From a virus: DNA of 22,567 nt. The translations under genes were made by a program, and so were the position numbers. The stretch is taken from the IMG/VR virus record IMGVR_UViG_3300044489_000065, positions 1 to 22,567 of that record. One strand, written 5' to 3'. Positions within the stretch are counted from its first letter, which is position 1; each line of letters opens with the position of its first letter. This document shows positions 295-8,345 of this stretch, one piece after another. The notes under the pieces were generated by a model. It saw nothing but the letters and a program-made list of their open reading frames with translations. It was not told the DNA's origin and did no database searches.

Positions 295-332
295 GCAAAA
301 AATAAACTTTTTGTCTGCGAGGAGCCAGGCAA

Positions 333-356
333 CAAAAAACCCGCCGAAGCGGGTTT
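333..356 (-). terminator. Rho-independent terminator of the repressor gene
   Basis: On the minus strand an 8-bp stem AAACCCGC/GCGGGTTT with a TTCG tetraloop (349-356 and 337-344) runs directly into a run of six T. It sits 22 bases beyond the repressor stop codon at 379. The orientation of the T run assigns it to leftward transcription. Confidence 0.85.
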
Positions 357-378
357 GTGTGATTACATTCCGGAAGTT

Positions 379-804
379 CTACGCGCGTTGCCGTTTTTTC
401 ATCAATTCGTCCATGATGGCATCGTTGCTCTGTTTCTGAGACTGAAGACGGCGGATCACTTCGTCCTGCTGGCCTTCTGTCAGTCCGTCGAACAGATCAA
501 CCAATGCCTGTTGGCGCGGCGTCAGCGGCGTGGCCTTTCTTGGCGGTGGCTCATTCCGCGCTTCGCCATGAGGCTGATCGAGCCAGCCGCGATCCTTATT
601 TCCGGCATCCTCAAAGCGCCAGGCTGTTTCCTTGCGCATGCCCCTGGGCTTGCCAGACCGCGCATCCTTGGCGCCGTCGCGCAGATTGACATATTGCGCA
701 TACGACATTTTGACGGCCTCGTGCATCGCCTTCACCGATCCCGCCTCGCGCTCGAGGATCAGTATGTTCTGACGCCGGATTTCATCAATATCCATAGCTT
801 TCAT
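379..804 (-). CDS. Phage repressor (CI-like), 141 aa, without a protease domain
   Basis: This is probably the lysogenic repressor. It is transcribed divergently from a Cro-type gene across a 77-base control region. Residues 1-60 look like a helix-turn-helix DNA-binding domain (DEIRRQNILILEREAGS, then VKMSYAQYVNLRDG), followed by a polar linker (KPRGMRKETAWRFEDAGN) and a C-terminal segment from about 92 (LTPRQQALVDLFDGL) rich in Q and K. It resembles short HTH repressors I associate with proteobacterial prophages. It is much shorter than lambda CI (about 237 aa), and I see no Ala-Gly cleavage site or Ser/Lys S24 peptidase domain, so RecA-stimulated self-cleavage is unlikely. Starts at 804 (no clear SD) and 795 (weak GAAAG) are both possible. 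A strong terminator follows at 333-356. Confidence 0.7.
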   Translation of the reverse strand: MKAMDIDEIRRQNILILEREAGSVKAMHEAVKMSYAQYVNLRDGAKDARSGKPRGMRKETAWRFEDAGNKDRGWLDQPHGEARNEPPPRKATPLTPRQQALVDLFDGLTEGQQDEVIRRLQSQKQSNDAIMDELMKKRQRA

Positions 805-828
805 TAGATACCAATTTACAGATCGTTA

Positions 829-857
829 ATACTTGCGCATTGCTATTGACAGGTCAA
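829..857 (-). promoter_or_regulatory. Putative repressor promoter (leftward)
   Basis: On the minus strand TTGACC (857-852) and AAGTAT (834-829) are 17 nt apart. The -10 matches consensus at only three of six positions. The -35 forms half of the palindrome shared with the Cro promoter, so the two promoters overlap back to back. Confidence 0.35.
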
Positions 858-858
858 T
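845..858. promoter_or_regulatory. Putative operator: 14-bp palindrome between repressor and cro
   Basis: ATTGAC-AG-GTCAAT is a perfect inverted repeat with 6-bp arms. It overlaps the -35 hexamers of both divergent promoters, where a CI/Cro switch operator would be expected. I see only one clear copy in the intergenic region, unlike the three sites of each lambda operator. Confidence 0.6.
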
Positions 859-874
859 TGTGCTGCGCTAAGTT
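846..874 (+). promoter_or_regulatory. Putative cro promoter, possibly giving a leaderless mRNA
   Basis: TTGACA (846-851) is a perfect -35 and TAAGTT (869-874) lies 17 nt further. Transcription would start at about 880-882, which is the cro ATG itself (882), and no Shine-Dalgarno precedes that ATG. The -10 match is weak (three of six). Confidence 0.5.
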
Positions 875-881
875 ACTCGGC

Positions 882-1112
882 ATGAACCTGACAACCTACC
901 TGGAACAAACCCGTAGCTCGACCACTCTTGCCAAGGCCATTGGTGTGTCGCCCGTAATGGTCAGCCTCTGGAAAACAGGCGCTCGACCCGTGCCGATTGA
1001 GCGATGCGTCGCCATCGAGCAGGCCACCGGCGGCGCCGTGACGCGGCGCGATCTTCGGCCCGACGACTGGCACCTGATCTGGCCAGAGCTCGCTCAGAAG
1101 GCTGCCGCATGA
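882..1112 (+). CDS. Cro/YdaS-family transcriptional regulator (76 aa)
   Basis: A small HTH protein at the head of the rightward early operon. The HTH is at about residues 15-35 (LAKAIGVSPVMVSLWKTG), followed by RPVPIERCVAIEQATGGAV and the C-terminal RRDLRPDDWHLIWPEL, the layout of the YdaS/Cro-like family (Pfam YdaS_antitoxin) in prophages. It probably competes with the divergent repressor for the 845-858 operator and commits the phage to lytic growth; this is inferred from family and position. The start at 882 is preferred over 840 because 840 lies upstream of the -35 and because the family begins MNL-like here. There is no SD, which fits a leaderless transcript. Its stop overlaps the next small ORF (ATGA). 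Confidence 0.8.
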   Translation: MNLTTYLEQTRSSTTLAKAIGVSPVMVSLWKTGARPVPIERCVAIEQATGGAVTRRDLRPDDWHLIWPELAQKAAA

Positions 1113-1171
1113 GCGATGCAGTCATCGTACACAAGCGCGCTGCGCGCAATTATTTGATTGAAAGGGCTTAA
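1109..1171 (+). CDS. 20-residue coupled ORF between cro and cII (tentative)
   Basis: MSDAVIVHKRAARNYLIERA starts in an ATGA overlap with the cro stop and ends two bases before the CII ATG. It has no SD of its own. Its sequence carries the AAAGGG that would serve the CII start. It may be a translational bridge between cro and CII rather than a functional peptide. No family can be assigned at this length. Confidence 0.35.
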   Translation: MSDAVIVHKRAARNYLIERA

Positions 1172-1173
1172 AC

Positions 1174-1611
1174 ATGGACGCGCTCGATCTATCCATCCAC
1201 GCCGCCGCGCACGGCTACGGCCTGCCCAAACTCGCCCGCAAGCTGGGCAAGTCGGAACAGGTGTTCCGCAATCGGCTTAACCCCAACGATGAGGCGAACG
1301 GCCTGCGTCTGGCGGAGTTCGTGGCGATCCTCGATGTCACGGGAAACATGACGCCGCTTGAGATTCTGGCCGGGATGTTCGGCCACACGATCTCGCACCG
1401 GCCAAAGACATATACCGGAAGCCTGCTGTCGGCCATCCTGGCCGCTGACGCCGAGTACGGCGACATCGCCCGCACCATCAGGGACGCCATCAGCGATGGA
1501 CGACTGAACACCCGTGAGCGGCTGGCGATCCGCAAGGAGATCAGCGAGGCGCGCCTGGTGCTGGATGCGCTCGAAGATCGCATCATGAGCACCGATGAGG
1601 ACGGTGTCTGA
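1174..1611 (+). CDS. CII-type phage regulatory protein (CP76 family), 145 aa
   Basis: The N-terminus MDALDLSIHAAAHGYGLPKLARKLGKSEQVFRNRLNP is typical of the Phage_CP76 (CII-like) family found directly behind cro in prophages. Residues 15-40 carry the HTH (LPKLARKLGKSEQVFRNRL) and 45-60 (LRLAEFVAILDVTGNMTPLE) a second helical region; residues 100-145 are charged and helical. Such proteins are thought to control the lysogeny decision; the exact target is unknown here. AAAGGG about 9 nt upstream supports the ATG at 1174. Its stop overlaps the next ATG (TGATG, 1609-1613). Confidence 0.85.
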   Translation: MDALDLSIHAAAHGYGLPKLARKLGKSEQVFRNRLNPNDEANGLRLAEFVAILDVTGNMTPLEILAGMFGHTISHRPKTYTGSLLSAILAADAEYGDIARTIRDAISDGRLNTRERLAIRKEISEARLVLDALEDRIMSTDEDGV

Positions 1612-1844
1612 TGACCACGCGGTGGACATGGCACCCGGTCAAGCCGGGCGACAAGTACGCCATCACGCCGTGGGTTGACGGTGAGCAGCTGCCATACACG
1701 GTGACCCAGATCACCATCTGGGACCGCGTGTTCTACGAATCGTGGTTTCTGGCCGACAACCACCACCACCGCATCGGGGCAGCCGATAACGCCGCCGACG
1801 CCCGCCACGCCTGCGTCAATCACCATCGAGAGCAGCAGCAATGA
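1611..1844 (+). CDS. Hypothetical early phage protein (77 aa)
   Basis: A small acidic-to-neutral protein rich in W, H and Q (MTTRWTWHPVKPGDKYAITP... ending NHHREQQQ), with His clusters near residues 50-54 and 70-72. The strand-like centre (LPYTVTQITIWDRVFYESWFL) suggests a small beta-rich fold. There is no membrane segment or recognisable catalytic motif. It overlaps CII by TGATG and the following 47-residue ORF by ATGA, so it belongs to the coupled early operon. I do not recognise the family. Confidence 0.65.
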   Translation: MTTRWTWHPVKPGDKYAITPWVDGEQLPYTVTQITIWDRVFYESWFLADNHHHRIGAADNAADARHACVNHHREQQQ

Positions 1845-1984
1845 AAAACCCGTCCCCAGCAGGATGCGGATTCGGACGCGCCCGCGCTCAAAGTCAATAC
1901 CAGGTGCGTGGGTCCTTCCTGAGCATCCCTGGCGCGGGTACGAAGCGGCGCGGAATCGCGCTAGGGTTTGGTGTCTGGGTATAG
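1841..1984 (+). CDS. Hypothetical small basic protein (47 aa)
   Basis: Begins in an ATGA overlap with the preceding gene (ATG 1841-1843, TGA 1842-1844) and stops at TAG 1982-1984, 9 bases before the minor tail Z gene. It starts MKNPSPAGCGFGRARAQ, is rich in G and R, and ends in a short hydrophobic tail (GIALGFGVWV). No SD of its own is visible. It fills the only space in the early operon between the 77-residue gene and Z, which argues for a real coupled cistron, but no family is recognised. Confidence 0.4.
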   Translation: MKNPSPAGCGFGRARAQSQYQVRGSFLSIPGAGTKRRGIALGFGVWV

Positions 1985-1993
1985 GTCACGCCT

Positions 1994-2602
1994 ATGCAGA
2001 TCAAAATGCGCATTAAAGGCCTTGAGGACGCGAAGCGCGAGCTTCGGCGGCTGGCGGATCGCGCCGAGCGCGACAGGGCCATTGCCGCCGCCATCAACAA
2101 GGTGTCCGAGAAGGGGCGAACGGAGGTCAGCCGTGCTGTGCGCGAGGAGTGGAACATTGGCGCGTCCGATGTCTCCGCGTCGATCGGCCTGCGCCGCGCC
2201 AGCGCCAAAGGGCTGCGCCTTGACGGCGCCATCAACATCTACGGAAGCCCGAAGCGGCGCGGACGGTCGCTCAATCTTGTCCGGTTCATGGAGAAGAAGG
2301 TGACGCTGGCCGAAGGCCGCCGCCGTGCCAAGCGCGGAGACCTCATGAAGTTGTTCTTCAGGATGCGCAAGGGCGGCGGTCTTAAAGGGGTTGCCGGTGC
2401 GTTTTTGGGCAACAAAGGCCGCACCGTATTCCGCCGCACAGGGAAGGGGCGGCTTCCCATTGAGCCGGTTCAGATGATCGGCGTCAGCCAGATGTTCAAC
2501 AGTCGCGCCATCCGGGACCGTGTGATGCGGCGGATCGAGAACGAGTTCGGCATCGAAATCCACCGCGCCGTCGAGATGGTCATTGCCAGAAGGATGAAAT
2601 GA
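1994..2602 (+). CDS. Minor tail protein Z-like (lambda gpZ family), displaced into the early operon
   Basis: 202 residues, highly basic, with an N-terminal motif MQIKMRIKGLEDAKRELRRL followed by DRAIAAAINKVSEKGRTEVSRAV. This matches the Prophage minor tail protein Z family (lambda gpZ is 192 aa): a short beta-helix start, then AINRV-like helices, a basic middle (KRRGRSLNLVRFMEKKV, then RMRKGGGLKG), and the C-terminal PIEPVQMIGVSQMFNS...RDRVMRRIENEFGIEI. gpZ is needed for correct tail-head completion. In lambda it lies between FII and U; here that position (about 16865) holds no Z, while this copy lies between small early genes and the primase. The SD (AGG near 1983) is weak. The stop overlaps the primase start (ATGA). 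Confidence 0.75.
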   Translation: MQIKMRIKGLEDAKRELRRLADRAERDRAIAAAINKVSEKGRTEVSRAVREEWNIGASDVSASIGLRRASAKGLRLDGAINIYGSPKRRGRSLNLVRFMEKKVTLAEGRRRAKRGDLMKLFFRMRKGGGLKGVAGAFLGNKGRTVFRRTGKGRLPIEPVQMIGVSQMFNSRAIRDRVMRRIENEFGIEIHRAVEMVIARRMK

Positions 2603-4959
2603 GCAACCACGACGCCGTCATCAGCACCCTGCGCGCATCCGGTTTTGTGCTGGATGGGCTCGAGATTGGCCGGATGGTTCGGGTCAAGCGGCAGGGGCAC
2701 AAGCAAAAGGGCTGGTATGTCCTGAACGAGATCACGCTGGACGACGGGGCGCGGCATCTGATCGGGTCTTACGGATATTGGGCCGGGGCCGAGAAGTTCT
2801 CTGACAAGATCAGGCCGGGCCGCGATGTGCGCCTGTCTGCCGAGCAGCGGGCCGAGATCGAGGCCCGTCACAAAGCCGCCACGAAGGCGGAGGAAGAGCG
2901 CCGCCGCCTGCTCGCGCTTGACGCCTCCGCCAAGGCCACCCGGGTTTGGCGCGAATACAGGCCGGGTGGCGGGCAGTCTGGTTATCTGGCGCGGAAGTCG
3001 GTGGGTGCGCACGGCGTGCGCTGGGCGCCCGATGATCGGGACACCTTCGCCATCCCGATCCGGGACAACGACTACAAAATATGGGGCTTGCAGATCATCC
3101 GTGGCGGAAACCGCCGCCCTGGGCAGCTCGAGAAAGAATACTTCCCGGCAGGACTGGTCAAAAAGGGCCACTACCATCTCATCGGCGCGATCGTCGATGT
3201 GGTGCTGATCGCCGAGGGCTACGCCACCGGATCATCCCTGCACGAGGCGACTGGCCTGCCTGTGGTGGTCGCGTTCGACGCCGGAAACCTCAAGCCGGTC
3301 GCCGAGGCCATCCGCCGGGTGCACAAAAAGGCGCGCATCCTGATCTGTGCCGATGATGACTACCTGACCGACGGCAACCCGGGCGTGCGCCACGCCAATG
3401 AGGCCGCGCTGACGGTCGATGGACACTGGTGCAAGCCCTCGTTTACCGTTGAGCGCGCCAAAACCAAAGACAGCCGCGACTATATAACCGATTTTAATGA
3501 CCTCGCCTGCCGCGAAGGGGCTCAGGCGGTGCAGCGCATCATCCAGGCCGCCGTCGCCAAGCTGCCGCCCGTGCGGGGCGTGCCCACCGTCATGGTGCGG
3601 GGCGCGATACCCACGGGGGGCGGGGAGACGGCGGATGACGGCGCGATGCCCTCCATCATGTCCGTTGACGATGCCGCGCTGCGCTACTGGGGCACCTATG
3701 GGTTAGGTGGCAAAGTGCTGTTCGATGAAGTCGAGCGTCGGCTGGTTGCGAAGGACGATGTCATGAACCTGCTGCCCGAGCGCAGCTGGAACGACCTCAA
3801 GCGCCACCCGCACTGGCGCGTAGCCCGCGACAGCGAGATCGGCTTCGACCCGACCGATAAGGACGCGCAGATCAGGTGCAACCTGTTCGGAGGCTGGCCC
3901 ACCACGCCCAAGGCGGGCACCTGCGACAAGCTGCTGGGGCTGCTGGAGTACCTTTGCGCCAACGAAACCAACGAGCGCGAGGTTTACGAGTGGGTTCTGA
4001 AATGGCTCGCCTACCCGCTACAGCATCGCGGAGCCAAGATGCACAGCGCCATCGTCGTGCATGGCGGACAGGGCACTGGCAAAAGCCGGTTTTTCGAGGC
4101 CTATGGAAAAATTTTCGGGCCTTACGGACGGGTGCTGGGGCAAGAGGCGCTGGAAGACAAGTTCAACGCAGACTGGGCCGAGAAAAAGCTGTTCATCCTG
4201 GCCGACGAAGTGCTCGCGCGGCAGGACATGTACCACATCAAAAACCGGCTCAAAGGCTTCATCACCGGCGACACCATCCGCGTCAACCCCAAAAATGTCG
4301 CGGCGCACAACGAAAAAAACCAGATGAACATCGTTTTCCTGTCCAACGAGCGCCAGCCGTTGGTACTCGAAAACGACGACCGCCGACACCTGGTGATATG
4401 GGTACCGCCCAAGCTGGGGGACGATTACTTCAACGCGGTCAATGTCGAAATCGACAATGGCGGCATCGAAGCCCTGCACCACTACCTGTTAAACCTCGAT
4501 CTTGGCGACTTCAAACCCTGGACCCGACCGCCCATGACGGCGGCGAAGTCCGAGCTGATCGAGCTGGGCGCGAGCAGCGAAGACCGCTTCCTCAGGGAAT
4601 GGATGGCCGGGGAAATCGAAGACAAAGACGGCGAGACGCTGCCATTCATCCCGTGTCTGGGCTCTCACCTGTACCAGGCCTATAGCCTGTGGTGCGAGCA
4701 GCACGGCGAACGACGCCGGGGCGCGAAGGATTTATTGAGTCTGGCTGGCAAACAGCCCGGATGGACAGCGGGGAAATCCTGCCCGACATGGACCTCGCTT
4801 GTCGACCGCACAAACAAAAACCGAAAGATGGTGGTTCCCGCCGAGAGCGCCGTCGAAGGCGGCCCCAGCGGAGGCCGACATGCGCGAGGCACAAAAAGTA
4901 AGGCCGAATGGCTGACCTCCTGTTTTTTCGCATTCTCACAGGCGATGGTGTCCGAATGA
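2599..4959 (+). CDS. Phage replicative primase-helicase (Toprim + DUF5906/SF3-like ATPase), 786 aa
   Basis: A two-part replication protein. The Toprim-type primase region has VVLIAEGYATG (E206, G207) and the acidic motif ICADDD (D252-D254). The C-terminal helicase ATPase has Walker A GGQGTGKS (489-496), Walker B FILADE (D536, E537) and an SF3-like sensor asparagine in FLSNE (N583), followed by ENDDRRHLVIWV, typical of phage DUF5906 proteins. The region about 85-115 (AEQRAEIEARHKAATKAEEE) is a charged helix or coiled coil. I see no N-terminal zinc finger. It should prime and unwind DNA at the phage origin, and a two-armed iteron cluster begins four bases after its stop. It is coupled to Z by ATGA. 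Confidence 0.9.
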   Translation: MSNHDAVISTLRASGFVLDGLEIGRMVRVKRQGHKQKGWYVLNEITLDDGARHLIGSYGYWAGAEKFSDKIRPGRDVRLSAEQRAEIEARHKAATKAEEERRRLLALDASAKATRVWREYRPGGGQSGYLARKSVGAHGVRWAPDDRDTFAIPIRDNDYKIWGLQIIRGGNRRPGQLEKEYFPAGLVKKGHYHLIGAIVDVVLIAEGYATGSSLHEATGLPVVVAFDAGNLKPVAEAIRRVHKKARILICADDDYLTDGNPGVRHANEAALTVDGHWCKPSFTVERAKTKDSRDYITDFNDLACREGAQAVQRIIQAAVAKLPPVRGVPTVMVRGAIPTGGGETADDGAMPSIMSVDDAALRYWGTYGLGGKVLFDEVERRLVAKDDVMNLLPERSWNDLKRHPHWRVARDSEIGFDPTDKDAQIRCNLFGGWPTTPKAGTCDKLLGLLEYLCANETNEREVYEWVLKWLAYPLQHRGAKMHSAIVVHGGQGTGKSRFFEAYGKIFGPYGRVLGQEALEDKFNADWAEKKLFILADEVLARQDMYHIKNRLKGFITGDTIRVNPKNVAAHNEKNQMNIVFLSNERQPLVLENDDRRHLVIWVPPKLGDDYFNAVNVEIDNGGIEALHHYLLNLDLGDFKPWTRPPMTAAKSELIELGASSEDRFLREWMAGEIEDKDGETLPFIPCLGSHLYQAYSLWCEQHGERRRGAKDLLSLAGKQPGWTAGKSCPTWTSLVDRTNKNRKMVVPAESAVEGGPSGGRHARGTKSKAEWLTSCFFAFSQAMVSE

Positions 4960-5237
4960 AAAAACCACGGCAACCACGGCAAGCCACCACGGCACAAACC
5001 ACGGCACAAACCCAGCGTGCAGGCCAAAACCACGGCAACCACGGCAGAGGGGCCTCGTATGCACATATGTGCGGGCGTGTGCGCGTCATGTACACACACG
5101 CACCCGCACGCCCGGGTGCGCATTTCTTCCGTGGTTGCCGTGGTGTTAAGTGGTTTCAAATACTTACACCATTTTTTGCCGTGGTTTTTGCCGTGGTTTC
5201 AAAAATCCTGCCGTGGTTTACAGAGGTGACGCAATGA
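4956..5237 (+). CDS. Possible 93-aa ORF spanning the iteron array (doubtful)
   Basis: This frame opens in an ATGA overlap with the primase stop and closes in an ATGA overlap with the terminase small subunit start, matching the coupling pattern of the neighbouring genes. The predicted product is repeat-derived: MKKPRQPRQATTAQTTAQTQ at the start, NHGNHG in the middle, and a hydrophobic end (ILTPFFAVVFAVVSKILPWF). There is no SD at its start. Another frame of the same DNA is also largely open, as expected from a repeated DNA motif without stop codons. I think the DNA is primarily a binding-site array and the ORF secondary, but it could keep ribosomes running through to terS. Confidence 0.25.
   Translation: MKKPRQPRQATTAQTTAQTQRAGQNHGNHGRGASYAHMCGRVRVMYTHAPARPGAHFFRGCRGVKWFQILTPFFAVVFAVVSKILPWFTEVTQ
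4963..5218. repeat. Two-armed iteron array (6 direct + 5 inverted copies of AACCACGGCA): candidate ori or cos-binding site
   Basis: Left arm, plus orientation: AACCACGGCA at 4963, 4972, 4997, 5028 and 5037, plus a CCACGGCA core at 4987. Right arm, opposite orientation (TGCCGTGGTT): exact at 5177, 5189 and 5209, one mismatch at 5127 and 5136, and a half site GTGGTT near 5150. The pitch is 9 bp in three tandem pairs and irregular elsewhere. The 80-bp centre holds two palindromes. The array lies between the primase-helicase and the terminase small subunit. Clustered sites next to a replicative primase suggest an origin (compare phage P4 alpha and its iterons); sites directly upstream of a Nu1-like gene also fit a cosB-like element. 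By eye I did not see the full decamer elsewhere in the window. Confidence 0.9.
5061..5120. repeat. Central palindromes of the iteron array
   Basis: GCACATATGTGC (5061-5072) is a perfect 12-bp palindrome. Further right CGCACCCG (5099-5106) and CGGGTGCG (5113-5120) form an 8-bp hairpin stem with the 6-nt loop CACGCC. Between them lies an alternating purine-pyrimidine stretch (GTACACACACGCAC). Together they mark the symmetric core between the two oppositely oriented iteron arms, a likely site of melting, nicking or protein-induced looping. Confidence 0.6.
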
Positions 5238-5854
5238 ACAAAGTCACACAGGCAGAATTTGCGCGGATGTCCAATGTCACCCGGACCACGGTCAACCGCT
5301 GGATCGCCACGGGGCGCATCCAGACCGAGGCTGACGGGCTGATCGACCCCGTAGCCGCCACCCGGATGCGTGAGGCTACCGAAAGCCCCCTGCCCCACCA
5401 TCAGGCCCGCAAAGCCCAGATAGAGGCCGCCAAAGCCGCGAAGAGCGCGGGTGAATACCTAGACCCCACCCAGACCGAGAAAACGCAACACAGCGCATCC
5501 ACGGCGACCTCCAATACGCAGGGCGACACCGTCCCCGCGATGGAAAAACTAGGGGCCGCGCTCAAGCTGGAGACCTACAAGCTCCAGAAAGCCAAGGCCG
5601 AGCGCGAAAACCTCGCGCTGGACAAAGAAGCCGGGCTGCTGGTCGAGCGTGCCGAGGTCGAAATCGTCCTGGCCGACTACGGCGCCACGCTCCGCACCCT
5701 CATGGAAGGCCTGGCTGATCGCCTCTCGCCCACGCTGGCGGCGCACAAAGGCGATGTGCCCGCCATCCACGAAAGCCTTGATGCCGCGGCGCAAGACATC
5801 CTTTACACGCTCTCCGAACAAATAAAACGAAAAATGGAGGCTGTATGCCGTTGA
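5234..5854 (+). CDS. Terminase small subunit, lambda Nu1-like (206 aa)
   Basis: The N-terminus MNKVTQAEFARMSNVTRTTVNRWIATGRI is a winged-HTH/MerR-like DNA-binding domain like that of lambda gpNu1, followed by a Q/T-rich linker (about 55-100). A helical domain (LKLETYKLQKAKAERENLALD, then GLLVERAEVEIVLADYGATL) matches the Nu1 pattern of an ATPase-associated/dimerisation region and ends with MEGLADRLSPTLA. The protein should recognise the packaging site and recruit the large subunit. The ATG at 5234 is chosen for its GAGGTGA SD; an upstream start at 5150 would lie inside the iterons. The packaging-type iteron array lies directly upstream. The C4 promoter overlaps its stop codon, and the large subunit is 2.7 kb downstream. 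Confidence 0.75.
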   Translation: MNKVTQAEFARMSNVTRTTVNRWIATGRIQTEADGLIDPVAATRMREATESPLPHHQARKAQIEAAKAAKSAGEYLDPTQTEKTQHSASTATSNTQGDTVPAMEKLGAALKLETYKLQKAKAERENLALDKEAGLLVERAEVEIVLADYGATLRTLMEGLADRLSPTLAAHKGDVPAIHESLDAAAQDILYTLSEQIKRKMEAVCR

Positions 5855-5880
5855 CGCGCCGCAAATATTCGGGCTATGCT
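5851..5880 (+). promoter_or_regulatory. Putative promoter of the C4-like antisense RNA and antirepressor leader
   Basis: TTGACG (5851-5856) and TATGCT (5875-5880) are 18 nt apart. The -10 matches consensus at four of six positions. The predicted start near 5886-5888 coincides with the base of the first C4 hairpin. The -35 overlaps the terS stop codon. Confidence 0.6.
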
Positions 5881-5885
5881 TCCCC

Positions 5886-5969
5886 CGTCGCGGCAAATTC
5901 CGCGACCGGGTTTGGAAGCCCGACACTACGGCGGCGAAAGCCGCTGCGCGCAAGCCGAGCGGCTTTTTT
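5886..5969 (+). ncRNA. C4-like antisense RNA (P1/P7 immI type) controlling the antirepressor
   Basis: An RNA of about 84 nt, like the 77-nt C4 of P1. It contains an imperfect 11-bp stem (CCC-c-GTCGCGG ... CCGCGAC-c-GGG, 5883-5910) with loop CAAATT. A short GGG/CCC hairpin (5908-5921) exposes TTTGGAAG, then GACACTACG follows, and it ends in a terminator hairpin with six T. Two segments are complementary to the downstream antirepressor leader: GGGTTTGGAAGCC with 6041-6053 (12 pairs, two single-base bulges), and GCCCGACACTACG with 6081-6093 (12 pairs including one G-U, one bulge). This is the arrangement of the C4 antisense RNA family (Rfam C4), which represses translation of icd/ant in P1 and P7. 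Confidence 0.85.
5938..5969 (+). terminator. Terminator ending the C4-like RNA
   Basis: AAGCCGCT (5938-5945) pairs perfectly with AGCGGCTT (5958-5965) across a 12-nt loop, followed by T at 5964-5969. Readthrough would extend transcription into the antirepressor gene, so this is an attenuation or processing point. Confidence 0.8.
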
Positions 5970-6040
5970 CATGCCTTGGTGCGTCCAGTTTATGGGCGGG
6001 CCGGGCGGGGAGCCGCAAGGCTCGCCGGTTGCCGTAGCCG

Positions 6041-6093
6041 GCCTTCCAACCCGTTCGGTTCCGCCCACCCCGTTTGGAAGCGTGGTGTGCGGG
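6041..6093 (+). promoter_or_regulatory. C4 target sites in the antirepressor leader
   Basis: Two blocks complementary to the C4 RNA, at 6041-6053 and 6081-6093, lie 25-77 bases upstream of the BRO start codon. The leader also carries a sense copy of the C4 loop sequence, TTTGGAAG (6073-6080), which can pair in cis with CTTCCAA (6043-6049). The leader can therefore choose between an internal hairpin and pairing with C4, a plausible translational switch. Confidence 0.7.
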
Positions 6094-6117
6094 TCACAGA
6101 CCTTACGGAGAAACACC

Positions 6118-6837
6118 ATGGCAAAGCAAACCACCCCCGTCGTATTCCAATCCACCACCTTCGACATCGTTGACCGCAACGGTCAGACCTGGCTAAGGGG
6201 GCACCAAATTGGTGTAGCCCTTGGATACGCCAGAACCGACATCATTCAGAAGCTCTACCGCCAGCACGCCGACGAATTCACCGGCGACATGACCGCCGTG
6301 GTGCGTCTGCCCACCGAGGGCGGCGAGCAGGAAGTGCGCATCTTCTCGCCGCGCGGCTGCTACGCCCTGGGCATGTTCGCCCGCACCAAGGTTGCCAAGG
6401 ACTTCCGCGTCTGGGTGCTGGATGTGCTGGAAGGCAGGATCATGCCGCCTGCCCGCTCTGAAACGCACGAATTCAACCTGCGCGCGGTCATGATGGAAGG
6501 CAACACTACGCCCACCGTACCGTTGACGCAGGCCGTCCAGAAGGCGGTCAACCGCCGCGCCTGGGGCATGGCGCACGAGGCCTACGAATTGGCGCGCGCC
6601 TTCATCGAACGCCGGGTGGCATACAAGGCAGCGCTCGGCGTGCCGCGTCGGATCGACTTTAATCTGGCGATGGCAGCGATCCGCGAATGCACCCTCGATA
6701 TGGCACTCGCGCCACGCCACTACAACATGCTTGAGCAGATCATGACCTCCTCAGAACTGCTGGCCATTGCGGCAGAAAACCAGAGGGCCGCGTTGCATGA
6801 AGAATTCTCACGCCTTACGGGAGAAAACGATGAGTGA
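6118..6837 (+). CDS. BRO-N domain phage antirepressor (239 aa)
   Basis: Residues about 8-105 form a Bro-N domain: PVVFQSTTFDIVDRNGQTWL, GHQIGVALGYAR, FSPRGCYALGMFARTKVAK, then FRVWVLDVLEG. The C-terminal part (residues 120-239) is helical and probably mediates binding to a repressor or to DNA. Proteins of this type in phages such as P22 and N15 inactivate the repressor. The ATG at 6118 has GGAG 7 nt upstream; the frame stays open to 5845, but that part overlaps the C4 RNA and its terminator. An in-frame leader peptide from 5971 or 5992 is possible and would parallel the P1 icd reading frame that overlaps ant. Expression should be repressed by C4 RNA. The stop overlaps the next gene by 8 bases. 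Confidence 0.85.
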   Translation: MAKQTTPVVFQSTTFDIVDRNGQTWLRGHQIGVALGYARTDIIQKLYRQHADEFTGDMTAVVRLPTEGGEQEVRIFSPRGCYALGMFARTKVAKDFRVWVLDVLEGRIMPPARSETHEFNLRAVMMEGNTTPTVPLTQAVQKAVNRRAWGMAHEAYELARAFIERRVAYKAALGVPRRIDFNLAMAAIRECTLDMALAPRHYNMLEQIMTSSELLAIAAENQRAALHEEFSRLTGENDE

Positions 6838-7111
6838 ACTGGAAGACCTCGGGCGCTACCACCAGCTGCTCGACGAACTTTCCGACACACTGGCCCGCCG
6901 CAACGACGCCCTGTCGCGCGTTGCGGCAGTGCTGGGCGAGGCAGCCAGGCCGCCGGTCAGCCGTTACAACCTGGCGCGCAAGTGCCGGTTCGACGCAGCC
7001 GACCGGCTGCTGAACGAGGCCCGCGCCGCGCACGCCGCGGCAGAGGCGGCACTGGCCGAGATCGCAGTACTCGGCCCCATCGTCAACAAGCCGGTGCCGA
7101 GGATGGAATGA
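6830..7111 (+). CDS. Small helical/coiled-coil protein (93 aa), unknown function
   Basis: The start MSELEDLGRYHQLLDELSDTL has GGGAG just upstream (6819-6823), and the ATG overlaps the BRO stop. Almost the whole protein is predicted helical with heptad-like Leu/Ala spacing (RYHQLLDELSDTLARRNDAL; then AARAAHAAAEAALAEIAVL near the end), interrupted by PPVSRYNLARKC at about residues 42-53. This suggests a small coiled-coil protein. It is coupled to BRO and to the next micro-ORF (ATGA), so it probably belongs to the antirepressor transcript. I do not recognise the family. Confidence 0.6.
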   Translation: MSELEDLGRYHQLLDELSDTLARRNDALSRVAAVLGEAARPPVSRYNLARKCRFDAADRLLNEARAAHAAAEAALAEIAVLGPIVNKPVPRME

Positions 7112-7188
7112 CACACACCGAAAACATCCCAAAACCGGGTCAAAACCGGGGTCAGACCCCTTTAACCTCAAACAAGGAGGCAGCATGA
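7108..7188 (+). CDS. 26-residue coupled ORF before the methyltransferase (tentative)
   Basis: MTHTENIPKPGQNRGQTPLT, then SNKEAA, starts in an ATGA overlap with the preceding gene and ends in an ATGA overlap with the methyltransferase. It has no SD of its own, and its 3' end carries the strong AAGGAGG of the methyltransferase. It may exist only as spacer and coupling sequence. Confidence 0.3.
   Translation: MTHTENIPKPGQNRGQTPLTSNKEAA
7131..7160. repeat. Short tandem repeat plus GGGGTC-A-GACCCC palindrome
   Basis: AAAACCGGGTC (7131-7141) is followed immediately by AAAACCGGGGTC (7142-7153), which opens the 13-base palindrome GGGGTC-A-GACCCC (7148-7160). Similar GGGGTCAGACCCC hairpins are scattered in many proteobacterial genomes as REP-like elements; this single copy could be a remnant or a coincidence. 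Confidence 0.4.
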
Positions 7189-8345
7189 CACCCATCCGCC
7201 TGCACGACCGTTTTGAGACGCTGTCCATCGACGCGCTGATACCCTACGCACGCAACAGCCGCACGCACTCGCCAGAGCAGGTGGCGCAGATCGCAGCGAG
7301 CCTGCGCGAGTTTGGATTCACGAACCCGGTCCTGATCGACGAGACCGGCGGCATCATCGCGGGTCACGGGCGCGTCATGGCCGCCCGCCAGGCCGGACTG
7401 GATCGCGTGCCCTGCCTGCGTCTGGAGGGACTGACAGAGACACAAAAACGCGCCTACATCATCGCCGACAACAAACTGGCGCTGAATGCCGGGTGGGACG
7501 AAGACCTGCTGGCGCTTGAAATCAAAGACCTGCAAGGCATGGACTTCGACATCGACCTGCTGGGCTTCGACGCCAGCGAGATCGAGCAATACATCGCCAT
7601 GGCAGACGCCACCCCTGACGGCGAGACCGACCCGGACGAAGTGCCAGAGGTGCAGGCCGAGGCGGTGACGAAGCCCGGGGATGTCTGGCTACTCGGCAAG
7701 CATCGGATCATGTGCGGGGACAGCACGAACGCGGAGCAGGTGGCGAGGCTGATGAATGGGGAGAAGGCGTCTGCGTGTTTAACTGACCCACCGTATGGAC
7801 TCGGTAAAAAAATGTCTGGCGGAACATGGGCCACGAATGACTCAAATTATGCAGAAATGCACGAATGGGACAGGGTGGCTGATCAGCGGTTTTTTGATGC
7901 TGTAAGTGCTTTAGAAATTCCGTCGATTGTTTGGGGGGGGAATTACTCTTTATGCCCACCGTCTCGCGGGTGGCTGATATGGAATAAACCGTATTTCCCA
8001 ACAATGTCTGATTGCGAGCTTGCGTGGACAAATATGGACATGAATGCAAAGCGTTTTGACGGCCCGCGTGTTCATCAGTCTGACGGGAAAAAACAGCACC
8101 CGACACAAAAGCCGGTTGATTTGATGGTGTGGTGTTTAGGGTATTTCAAGGATTGCGATTCTGTTGTTGATATATTTTCAGGCTCCGGCACCACCATCAT
8201 CGCCGCCGAGCAAACAGGCCGCCGCTGCTACGCGATGGAGCTGTCGCCGCAGTATGTCGATGTCGCCGTCCGCCGCTGGCAGCGATTTACCGGCAAAACA
8301 GCCACGCTTGAAGCGACCGGAGCGTCGTTCCCGGGTGACGCATGA
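7185..8345 (+). CDS. ParB-like N domain fused to N6-adenine DNA methyltransferase (386 aa)
   Basis: Residues 10-100 form a ParB/Srx-like domain (LSIDALIPYARNSRTHSPEQ, then IAASLREFGFTNPVLID, GIIAGHGRVMAARQAGL). After an acidic linker the methyltransferase begins (KPGDVWLLGKHRIMCGDST): catalytic motif IV is DPPY (201-204) and the AdoMet motif I is FSGSG (331-335), preceded by HPTQKPVDLM. The order DPPY before FxGxG indicates a beta-class adenine methyltransferase. Its likely role is protection of phage DNA from host restriction, or DNA marking. AAGGAGG lies upstream of 7185. The stretch 7801-8160 is about 47% GC (169 of 360 counted), against about 70-73% in sample rows on either side. A G8 run lies at 7933-7940. 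No restriction endonuclease is adjacent. Confidence 0.9.
   Translation: MTPIRLHDRFETLSIDALIPYARNSRTHSPEQVAQIAASLREFGFTNPVLIDETGGIIAGHGRVMAARQAGLDRVPCLRLEGLTETQKRAYIIADNKLALNAGWDEDLLALEIKDLQGMDFDIDLLGFDASEIEQYIAMADATPDGETDPDEVPEVQAEAVTKPGDVWLLGKHRIMCGDSTNAEQVARLMNGEKASACLTDPPYGLGKKMSGGTWATNDSNYAEMHEWDRVADQRFFDAVSALEIPSIVWGGNYSLCPPSRGWLIWNKPYFPTMSDCELAWTNMDMNAKRFDGPRVHQSDGKKQHPTQKPVDLMVWCLGYFKDCDSVVDIFSGSGTTIIAAEQTGRRCYAMELSPQYVDVAVRRWQRFTGKTATLEATGASFPGDA

Follow-up and report, generated by a model that had tools for sequence, protein, structure and literature searches.

Prediction of a C4 immunity switch with an upstream IsrK RNA and a Bro-N antirepressor gene in a viral contig

In phages P1 and P7, C4 is well established as an antisense RNA that acts in trans (PMC5320573 and literature cited there). 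The RNA is represented in Rfam as C4 (RF01695) and its targets as c4-a1b1 (RF03163), and the elements of the system follow one another in the order promoter, a1/b1, C4, b2/a2 and antirepressor. A second system, isrK-STnc1160/orf45-anrP, has been described in the Salmonella prophage Gifsy-1, where IsrK in trans raised translation of the antirepressor about 139-fold and a transcriptional fusion 8-fold, STnc1160 was processed from read-through RNA and corresponded to a truncated orf45, and extra STnc1160 made the toxicity and growth arrest associated with IsrK stronger; the authors attributed activation by IsrK to refolding in cis (Hershko-Shalev et al. 2016, PMC4825925). Searching the text of their paper returned no mention of phage P1, the c4 repressor or Rfam, the term IsrK is absent from PMC5320573, and the two literatures appear to cover one device. 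The P4 CI RNA, with seqA and seqC, resembles the locus described here in that a processed RNA has a complementary site on either side of it within one transcript (PMC4825925), but what it controls is the termination of transcription in replication genes. The Group 1 and Group 2 small RNAs of Acinetobacter baumannii (PMC5320573) are likewise processed, C4-like and variable in a', and differ from our locus in occurring as many copies in one chromosome. Small RNAs antisense to C4-like RNAs have been reported in Acinetobacter (PMC5320573), in parallel to IsrK against C4, and an anti-C4 RNA is therefore not in itself a new idea.

The window analyzed here is IMG/VR virus record IMGVR_UViG_3300044489_000065, positions 1 to 22,567 (22,567 nt). 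Judged on its sequence, it holds a genuine C4 immunity switch, one more C4 system of the already known type, and the earlier note on this DNA was right to place a P1/P7-type system before the antirepressor gene. The window shares with P1 and P7 the order of elements, the C4 fold, and the complementarity of a' and b' to both target pairs (imperfect at a2 in the window), and with P7 a hairpin with a T-run 3' of a1/b1. P7 DNA that matches 5868-5923 of the window precedes the annotated c4 gene, and the order of Rfam matches in P7 is identical. Unlike P1 and P7, the window has no icd gene between C4 and the antirepressor, the Shine-Dalgarno site that a2 overlaps belongs to the antirepressor itself, the a'/b' allele is another one, and the antirepressor is of the Bro-N kind. 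The likeness to Gifsy-1 consists of an IsrK RNA with a terminator, a C4 RNA and an antirepressor downstream; the Gifsy-1 locus adjoins an antiterminator gene, Q, and its orf45 is separate, whereas the cassette in the window follows a terminase small subunit gene and its orf45-equivalent frame runs into the antirepressor. The order IsrK then C4 was also found with Rfam in Gifsy-1, in six other loci, and in 12 of 12 further loci.

Transcription of the cassette is predicted to start from a promoter at 5851-5880 (plus strand), with a -35 element TTGACG (5851-5856), an 18-nt spacer and a -10 element TATGCT (5875-5880). This pair was the only sigma-70-like site that a consensus scan found in 5700-6300 (1 found, 0.1 expected), and its -35, -10 and +1 G are kept in 123 related loci, which bears out the promoter proposed earlier. 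The predicted transcription start, G5887, is the first base of a match to Rfam isrK (RF01394; 58 bits at 5887-5969, curated cut-off 50), and c4-a1b1 scores 63 bits at 5874-5926 (curated cut-off 46.7). The two models overlap and appear to describe the same RNA. The first 13 columns of c4-a1b1 fall on 5874-5886, where the -10 element and the nucleotides leading to the transcription start lie; because the -35, the -10 and the +1 G are all kept in relatives, these columns probably represent the -10 element and not RNA. Rfam places C4 and c4-a1b1 in one clan and leaves isrK without a clan.

The IsrK RNA (5887-5969, plus strand), which carries the C4 targets a1 and b1, is 83 nt long and is predicted to fold into two hairpins followed by a third hairpin with six T (5964-5969), in good agreement with the two-hairpin RNA of about 84 nt and the six-T terminator that had been claimed. 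The intrinsic terminator (5936-5969, plus strand) has a stem of 5936-5945 with 5958-5967 and a hairpin energy of -20, and a T-run is present 3' of IsrK in 117 of 120 relatives. The features of an IsrK RNA are thus present in the sequence: its own promoter, a terminator, and an antirepressor downstream for read-through. On the same strand, b1 (5907-5918, with the loop TTTGGAAG at 5911-5918) forms 11 Watson-Crick pairs, interrupted by a single bulged U, with 6043-6053, and a1 (5926-5935), which covaries with the C4 loop in relatives, forms 10 pairs, two of them G-U, with 6028-6037. Two complementary blocks had been expected and do exist, but they are shorter than the 12 pairs given for each.

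The C4 RNA itself lies at 5988-6072 (plus strand), where RF01695 matches over model positions 1-87 with 64 bits and E 1.5e-10 (curated cut-off 45), and where the segment folds with a z-score of -4.2. The Rfam search proposed in the earlier note was therefore positive, but downstream of the RNA that had been taken for C4. Complementarity to the upstream a1 and b1 resides in a', the loop of the second C4 hairpin (6028-6037, plus strand; 10 pairs), and in b' (6043-6053, plus strand; 11 pairs), which includes CTTCCAAC at 6043-6050. By the GG cleavage rule for RNase P processing (PMC5320573), the 5' end of the mature C4 is predicted near GG 5994. As in P1, P7 and Gifsy-1, an antirepressor gene lies downstream on the same strand. 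An Rfam search with relaxed thresholds found no further credible RNA family near the cassette, and Rfam gave no match of the P4 CI type here.

Downstream of C4, on the same strand, the second target of b' is b2 (6072-6080), whose bases are identical to those of b1 and which lies just 5' of the antirepressor Shine-Dalgarno site. It includes the TTTGGAAG at 6073-6080 that had been read as a copy of the C4 loop; the sequence is there, but it is a target of C4, and since the C4 stretch CTTCCAAC targets the copies at 5911-5918 and 6073-6080 alike, these two run in the same sense. The a2 target and the Shine-Dalgarno site occupy 6103-6110 (plus strand; TTACGG at 6103-6108, GGAG at 6107-6110), and no icd-like gene lies between C4 and the antirepressor. 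In the window b2 matches b', and a2 overlaps the Shine-Dalgarno site; its pairing with a' is imperfect and the third weakest among 120 loci, such that repression may depend on b2 or fall short of that in relatives. The predicted pairing energies were -17.7 (a1) and -19.7 (b1) kcal/mol on the IsrK side, versus -8.5 (a2) and -10.3 (b2) kcal/mol on the leader side. The predicted binding to C4 is thus stronger for IsrK than for the leader, and IsrK could occupy C4. The antirepressor gene (6118-6837, plus strand) encodes a Bro-N domain (PF02498, E 2.7e-9), and the best PHROG match of its product is anti-repressor Ant (phrog_5060, E 1.6e-38), confirming the BRO antirepressor of the earlier note. The protein had no match in nine other contigs with a similar RNA, in a search that included no positive control.

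The energy of the whole-RNA duplex relative to shuffled sequence proved too blunt a measure in GC-rich RNA (z -2.2, weak) and was replaced by covariation. A pattern search for IsrK in viral and genome contigs gave 204 distinct stretches, of which 123 had a C4 core at the expected distance. About 80 of the 204 lacked a strict C4 core; some of these look like chance matches (Nonomuraea, Neobacillus, Chitinophagaceae), and others may be C4 variants. In all 123 loci, which represent 14 alleles, the three IsrK bases after TTGG complement the three C4 bases before CCAA, and none of 5000 shuffles of the distinct combinations matched b1 to b' as well. The b2 target was allele-matched to C4 in 121 of 123 loci, compared to 24% with loci shuffled. 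Complementarity of the C4 a' loop was 20.5 to its own IsrK and 12.3 to the IsrK of other loci, and 22.6 to its own downstream leader and 14.6 to the leaders of other loci, and a2 overlapped the Shine-Dalgarno site in 116 of the 120 loci with enough flank. Pairing on the IsrK side was stronger than on the leader side in 102 of 120 loci, and strongly so in the window, a comparison biased toward the IsrK side because the search pattern fixes part of b1. Among 120 loci there were 87 different a' loops. Runs of at least seven pairs (G-U allowed) between loop and leader occurred in 98% of own and 23% of foreign combinations, and insulation between a'/b' alleles is incomplete.

Since the pattern fixes part of b1 and the 123 loci are not independent of one another, a control set of 47 C4 copies was drawn from Pseudomonas genomes by use of the C4 model only, blind to IsrK. 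All four pairings (b' and a', each with its upstream and its downstream site) beat the best of 2000 permutations. It is the homology scores, together with covariation across related loci, that decisively place the predicted pairing above chance. One genome, G010, carries 18 C4 copies. Three of these (L263, L264 and L268) precede nearly identical proteins and differ in a' and b', and b1 and b2 match the locus's own b' in L263 and L264 and nearly so in L268. C4 was found in 92 of 99 Pseudomonas genomes (G010-G111), with a median of at least 13 copies and up to at least 39, each genome's figure being the number of candidates scored and hence a lower bound. Among the genes downstream of these copies (L256-L273) are those for small DUF6124 and DUF3077 proteins of unknown function and for a 52-aa family; DUF6124 was not mentioned in the literature searched. 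The Pseudomonas copies may represent a cellular use of C4 circuits.

Gifsy-1 offers experimental data on the same pairing. Rfam C4 matches Gifsy-1 at nt 103-186 from the transcript start, so the STnc1160/orf45 segment scores as a C4 RNA, and STnc1160, being a truncated orf45, is located where C4 lies. Mutants at G28, G31, C159 and C162, with compensatory data, have been described (PMC4825925). A check of the four bases against the Gifsy-1 record put G28 and G31 in b1 and C159 and C162 in b' of the Rfam C4, which means that the compensatory data support b1:b' pairing in the homolog. The IsrK and C4 literatures are thereby joined, with the Gifsy-1 mutants as direct tests of C4 pairing and IsrK as a candidate natural sponge. 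What the comparison adds is that IsrK appears to be the c4-a1b1 RNA, that STnc1160 lies within a C4 RNA, and that Pseudomonas genomes contain many predicted C4 copies.

The cassette is probably one transcription unit of the IsrK-C4-antirepressor kind, in which C4 represses and IsrK relieves. Within this explanation, the sequence supplies the layout, the families to which both RNAs belong, the partners in pairing and the covariation in relatives. RNA polymerase would start at about 5887, and many transcripts would end at 5969 as the 83-nt IsrK RNA. Read-through transcripts would be cut, presumably by RNase P, to give a C4 RNA of about 5994-6070, and would also serve as antirepressor mRNA. C4 is predicted to bind the leader at b2 (6072-6080) and at a2 (6103-6108, over the Shine-Dalgarno site), so that antirepressor translation would be blocked and the prophage would stay silent. 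IsrK, whose b1 and a1 are the same target sequences, may then act as a decoy, either occupying C4 in trans or holding it in cis, and the antirepressor would be switched on; the 139-fold rise seen with IsrK in Gifsy-1 fits such relief of C4. More tentatively, and with rather less confidence than we would need to expect it, we propose that IsrK is a natural sponge for C4: one promoter would make C4, the repressor, along with a free version of the C4 target, read-through would set their ratio, and the variable a'/b' alleles would give many partly insulated immunity types. The stronger toxicity with extra STnc1160 in Gifsy-1 does not fit a simple sponge. Studies of cross-immunity could draw on the natural a'/b' alleles, which already supply matched RNA pairs.

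The account given by the Gifsy-1 authors is a switch acting only in cis, in which pairing of the IsrK segment with the C4 segment of the read-through mRNA hides the start site, IsrK in trans refolds the mRNA, and C4 is not a trans repressor. The predicted fold of 5887-6135 pairs b1 with b' and a1 with a', as this account has it, and native gels and mutants of Gifsy-1 fit two folds (PMC4825925). However, b2 and a2 also covary with C4, though a cis-only model does not need them for b', and C4 of P1 and P7 acts in trans; we consider this account unlikely. Smaller still is the probability of control as in P4, raised by the Gifsy-1 authors (PMC4825925), whereby C4 on a1/b1 of the nascent RNA would favor termination at 5969 and read-through, not translation, would be controlled. 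The placement of a2 on the Shine-Dalgarno site in nearly all relatives points to translation, and the effect of IsrK in Gifsy-1 was larger on the translational than on the transcriptional fusion; the 8-fold rise in transcript level and the similar arrangement of CI with seqA and seqC speak for transcription control, which may act in addition.

The earlier note had the repressor and target RNAs exchanged: 5887-5969 was taken for C4, an antisense repressor acting in trans on blocks in the antirepressor leader. That segment does have a promoter of its own and a terminator, makes a short RNA and complements 6028-6053, but the downstream stretch regarded as the target leader is where Rfam C4 sits, and 5887-5969 gave no C4 match even at relaxed thresholds. 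Nor is there any block of at least eight Watson-Crick pairs between 5887-5969 and 6073-6117, so this RNA is not in a position to cover the ribosome site of the antirepressor. The c4 gene of P7 is downstream of the homologous segment, and the Gifsy-1 homolog of 5887-5969 activates and does not repress (PMC4825925), which leaves the exchanged roles most improbable.

The frame 5845-6837 is open from ATG 5845 or ATG 5992 across IsrK and C4 into the antirepressor, and an extended product is possible since ATG 5992, the equivalent of the orf45 start, is in frame with it. That the leader is mainly a reading frame, whose translation controls or extends the antirepressor, is scarcely credible and was rejected, even though frames over IsrK-C4 in relatives are open more often than in shuffles and orf45 coupling has been shown in Gifsy-1 (PMC4825925), because 5845-6114 has no Pfam match, the frame varies between relatives (53 of 114 open back to the IsrK start), and it would not yield RNA-RNA covariation. 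The main start is in one phase relative to b1 in 67 of 114 relatives, a count uncorrected for relatedness.

Directly 5' of the cassette is the terminase small subunit gene (5225-5854), whose stop codon overlaps the -35 box of the IsrK promoter, and the immunity cassette is located within the packaging gene region. A repressor-like gene (379-804, minus strand, 141 aa) reads leftward; neither Pfam nor NCBIfam gave a peptidase domain in it, which would fit induction via the antirepressor and not by self-cleavage. A search with 12 bases and at most 2 mismatches found no operator that the IsrK promoter has in common with the repressor-Cro gap (801-882). A second contig in IMG/VR, 7285 bases long, matches 328-7612 of the window with 100% identity and, as the same virus sampled twice, was not counted as independent. 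Another phage contig with an IsrK-C4 cassette, L010, carries a Type II hammerhead ribozyme (65.6 bits) at 7644-7710 on its minus strand.
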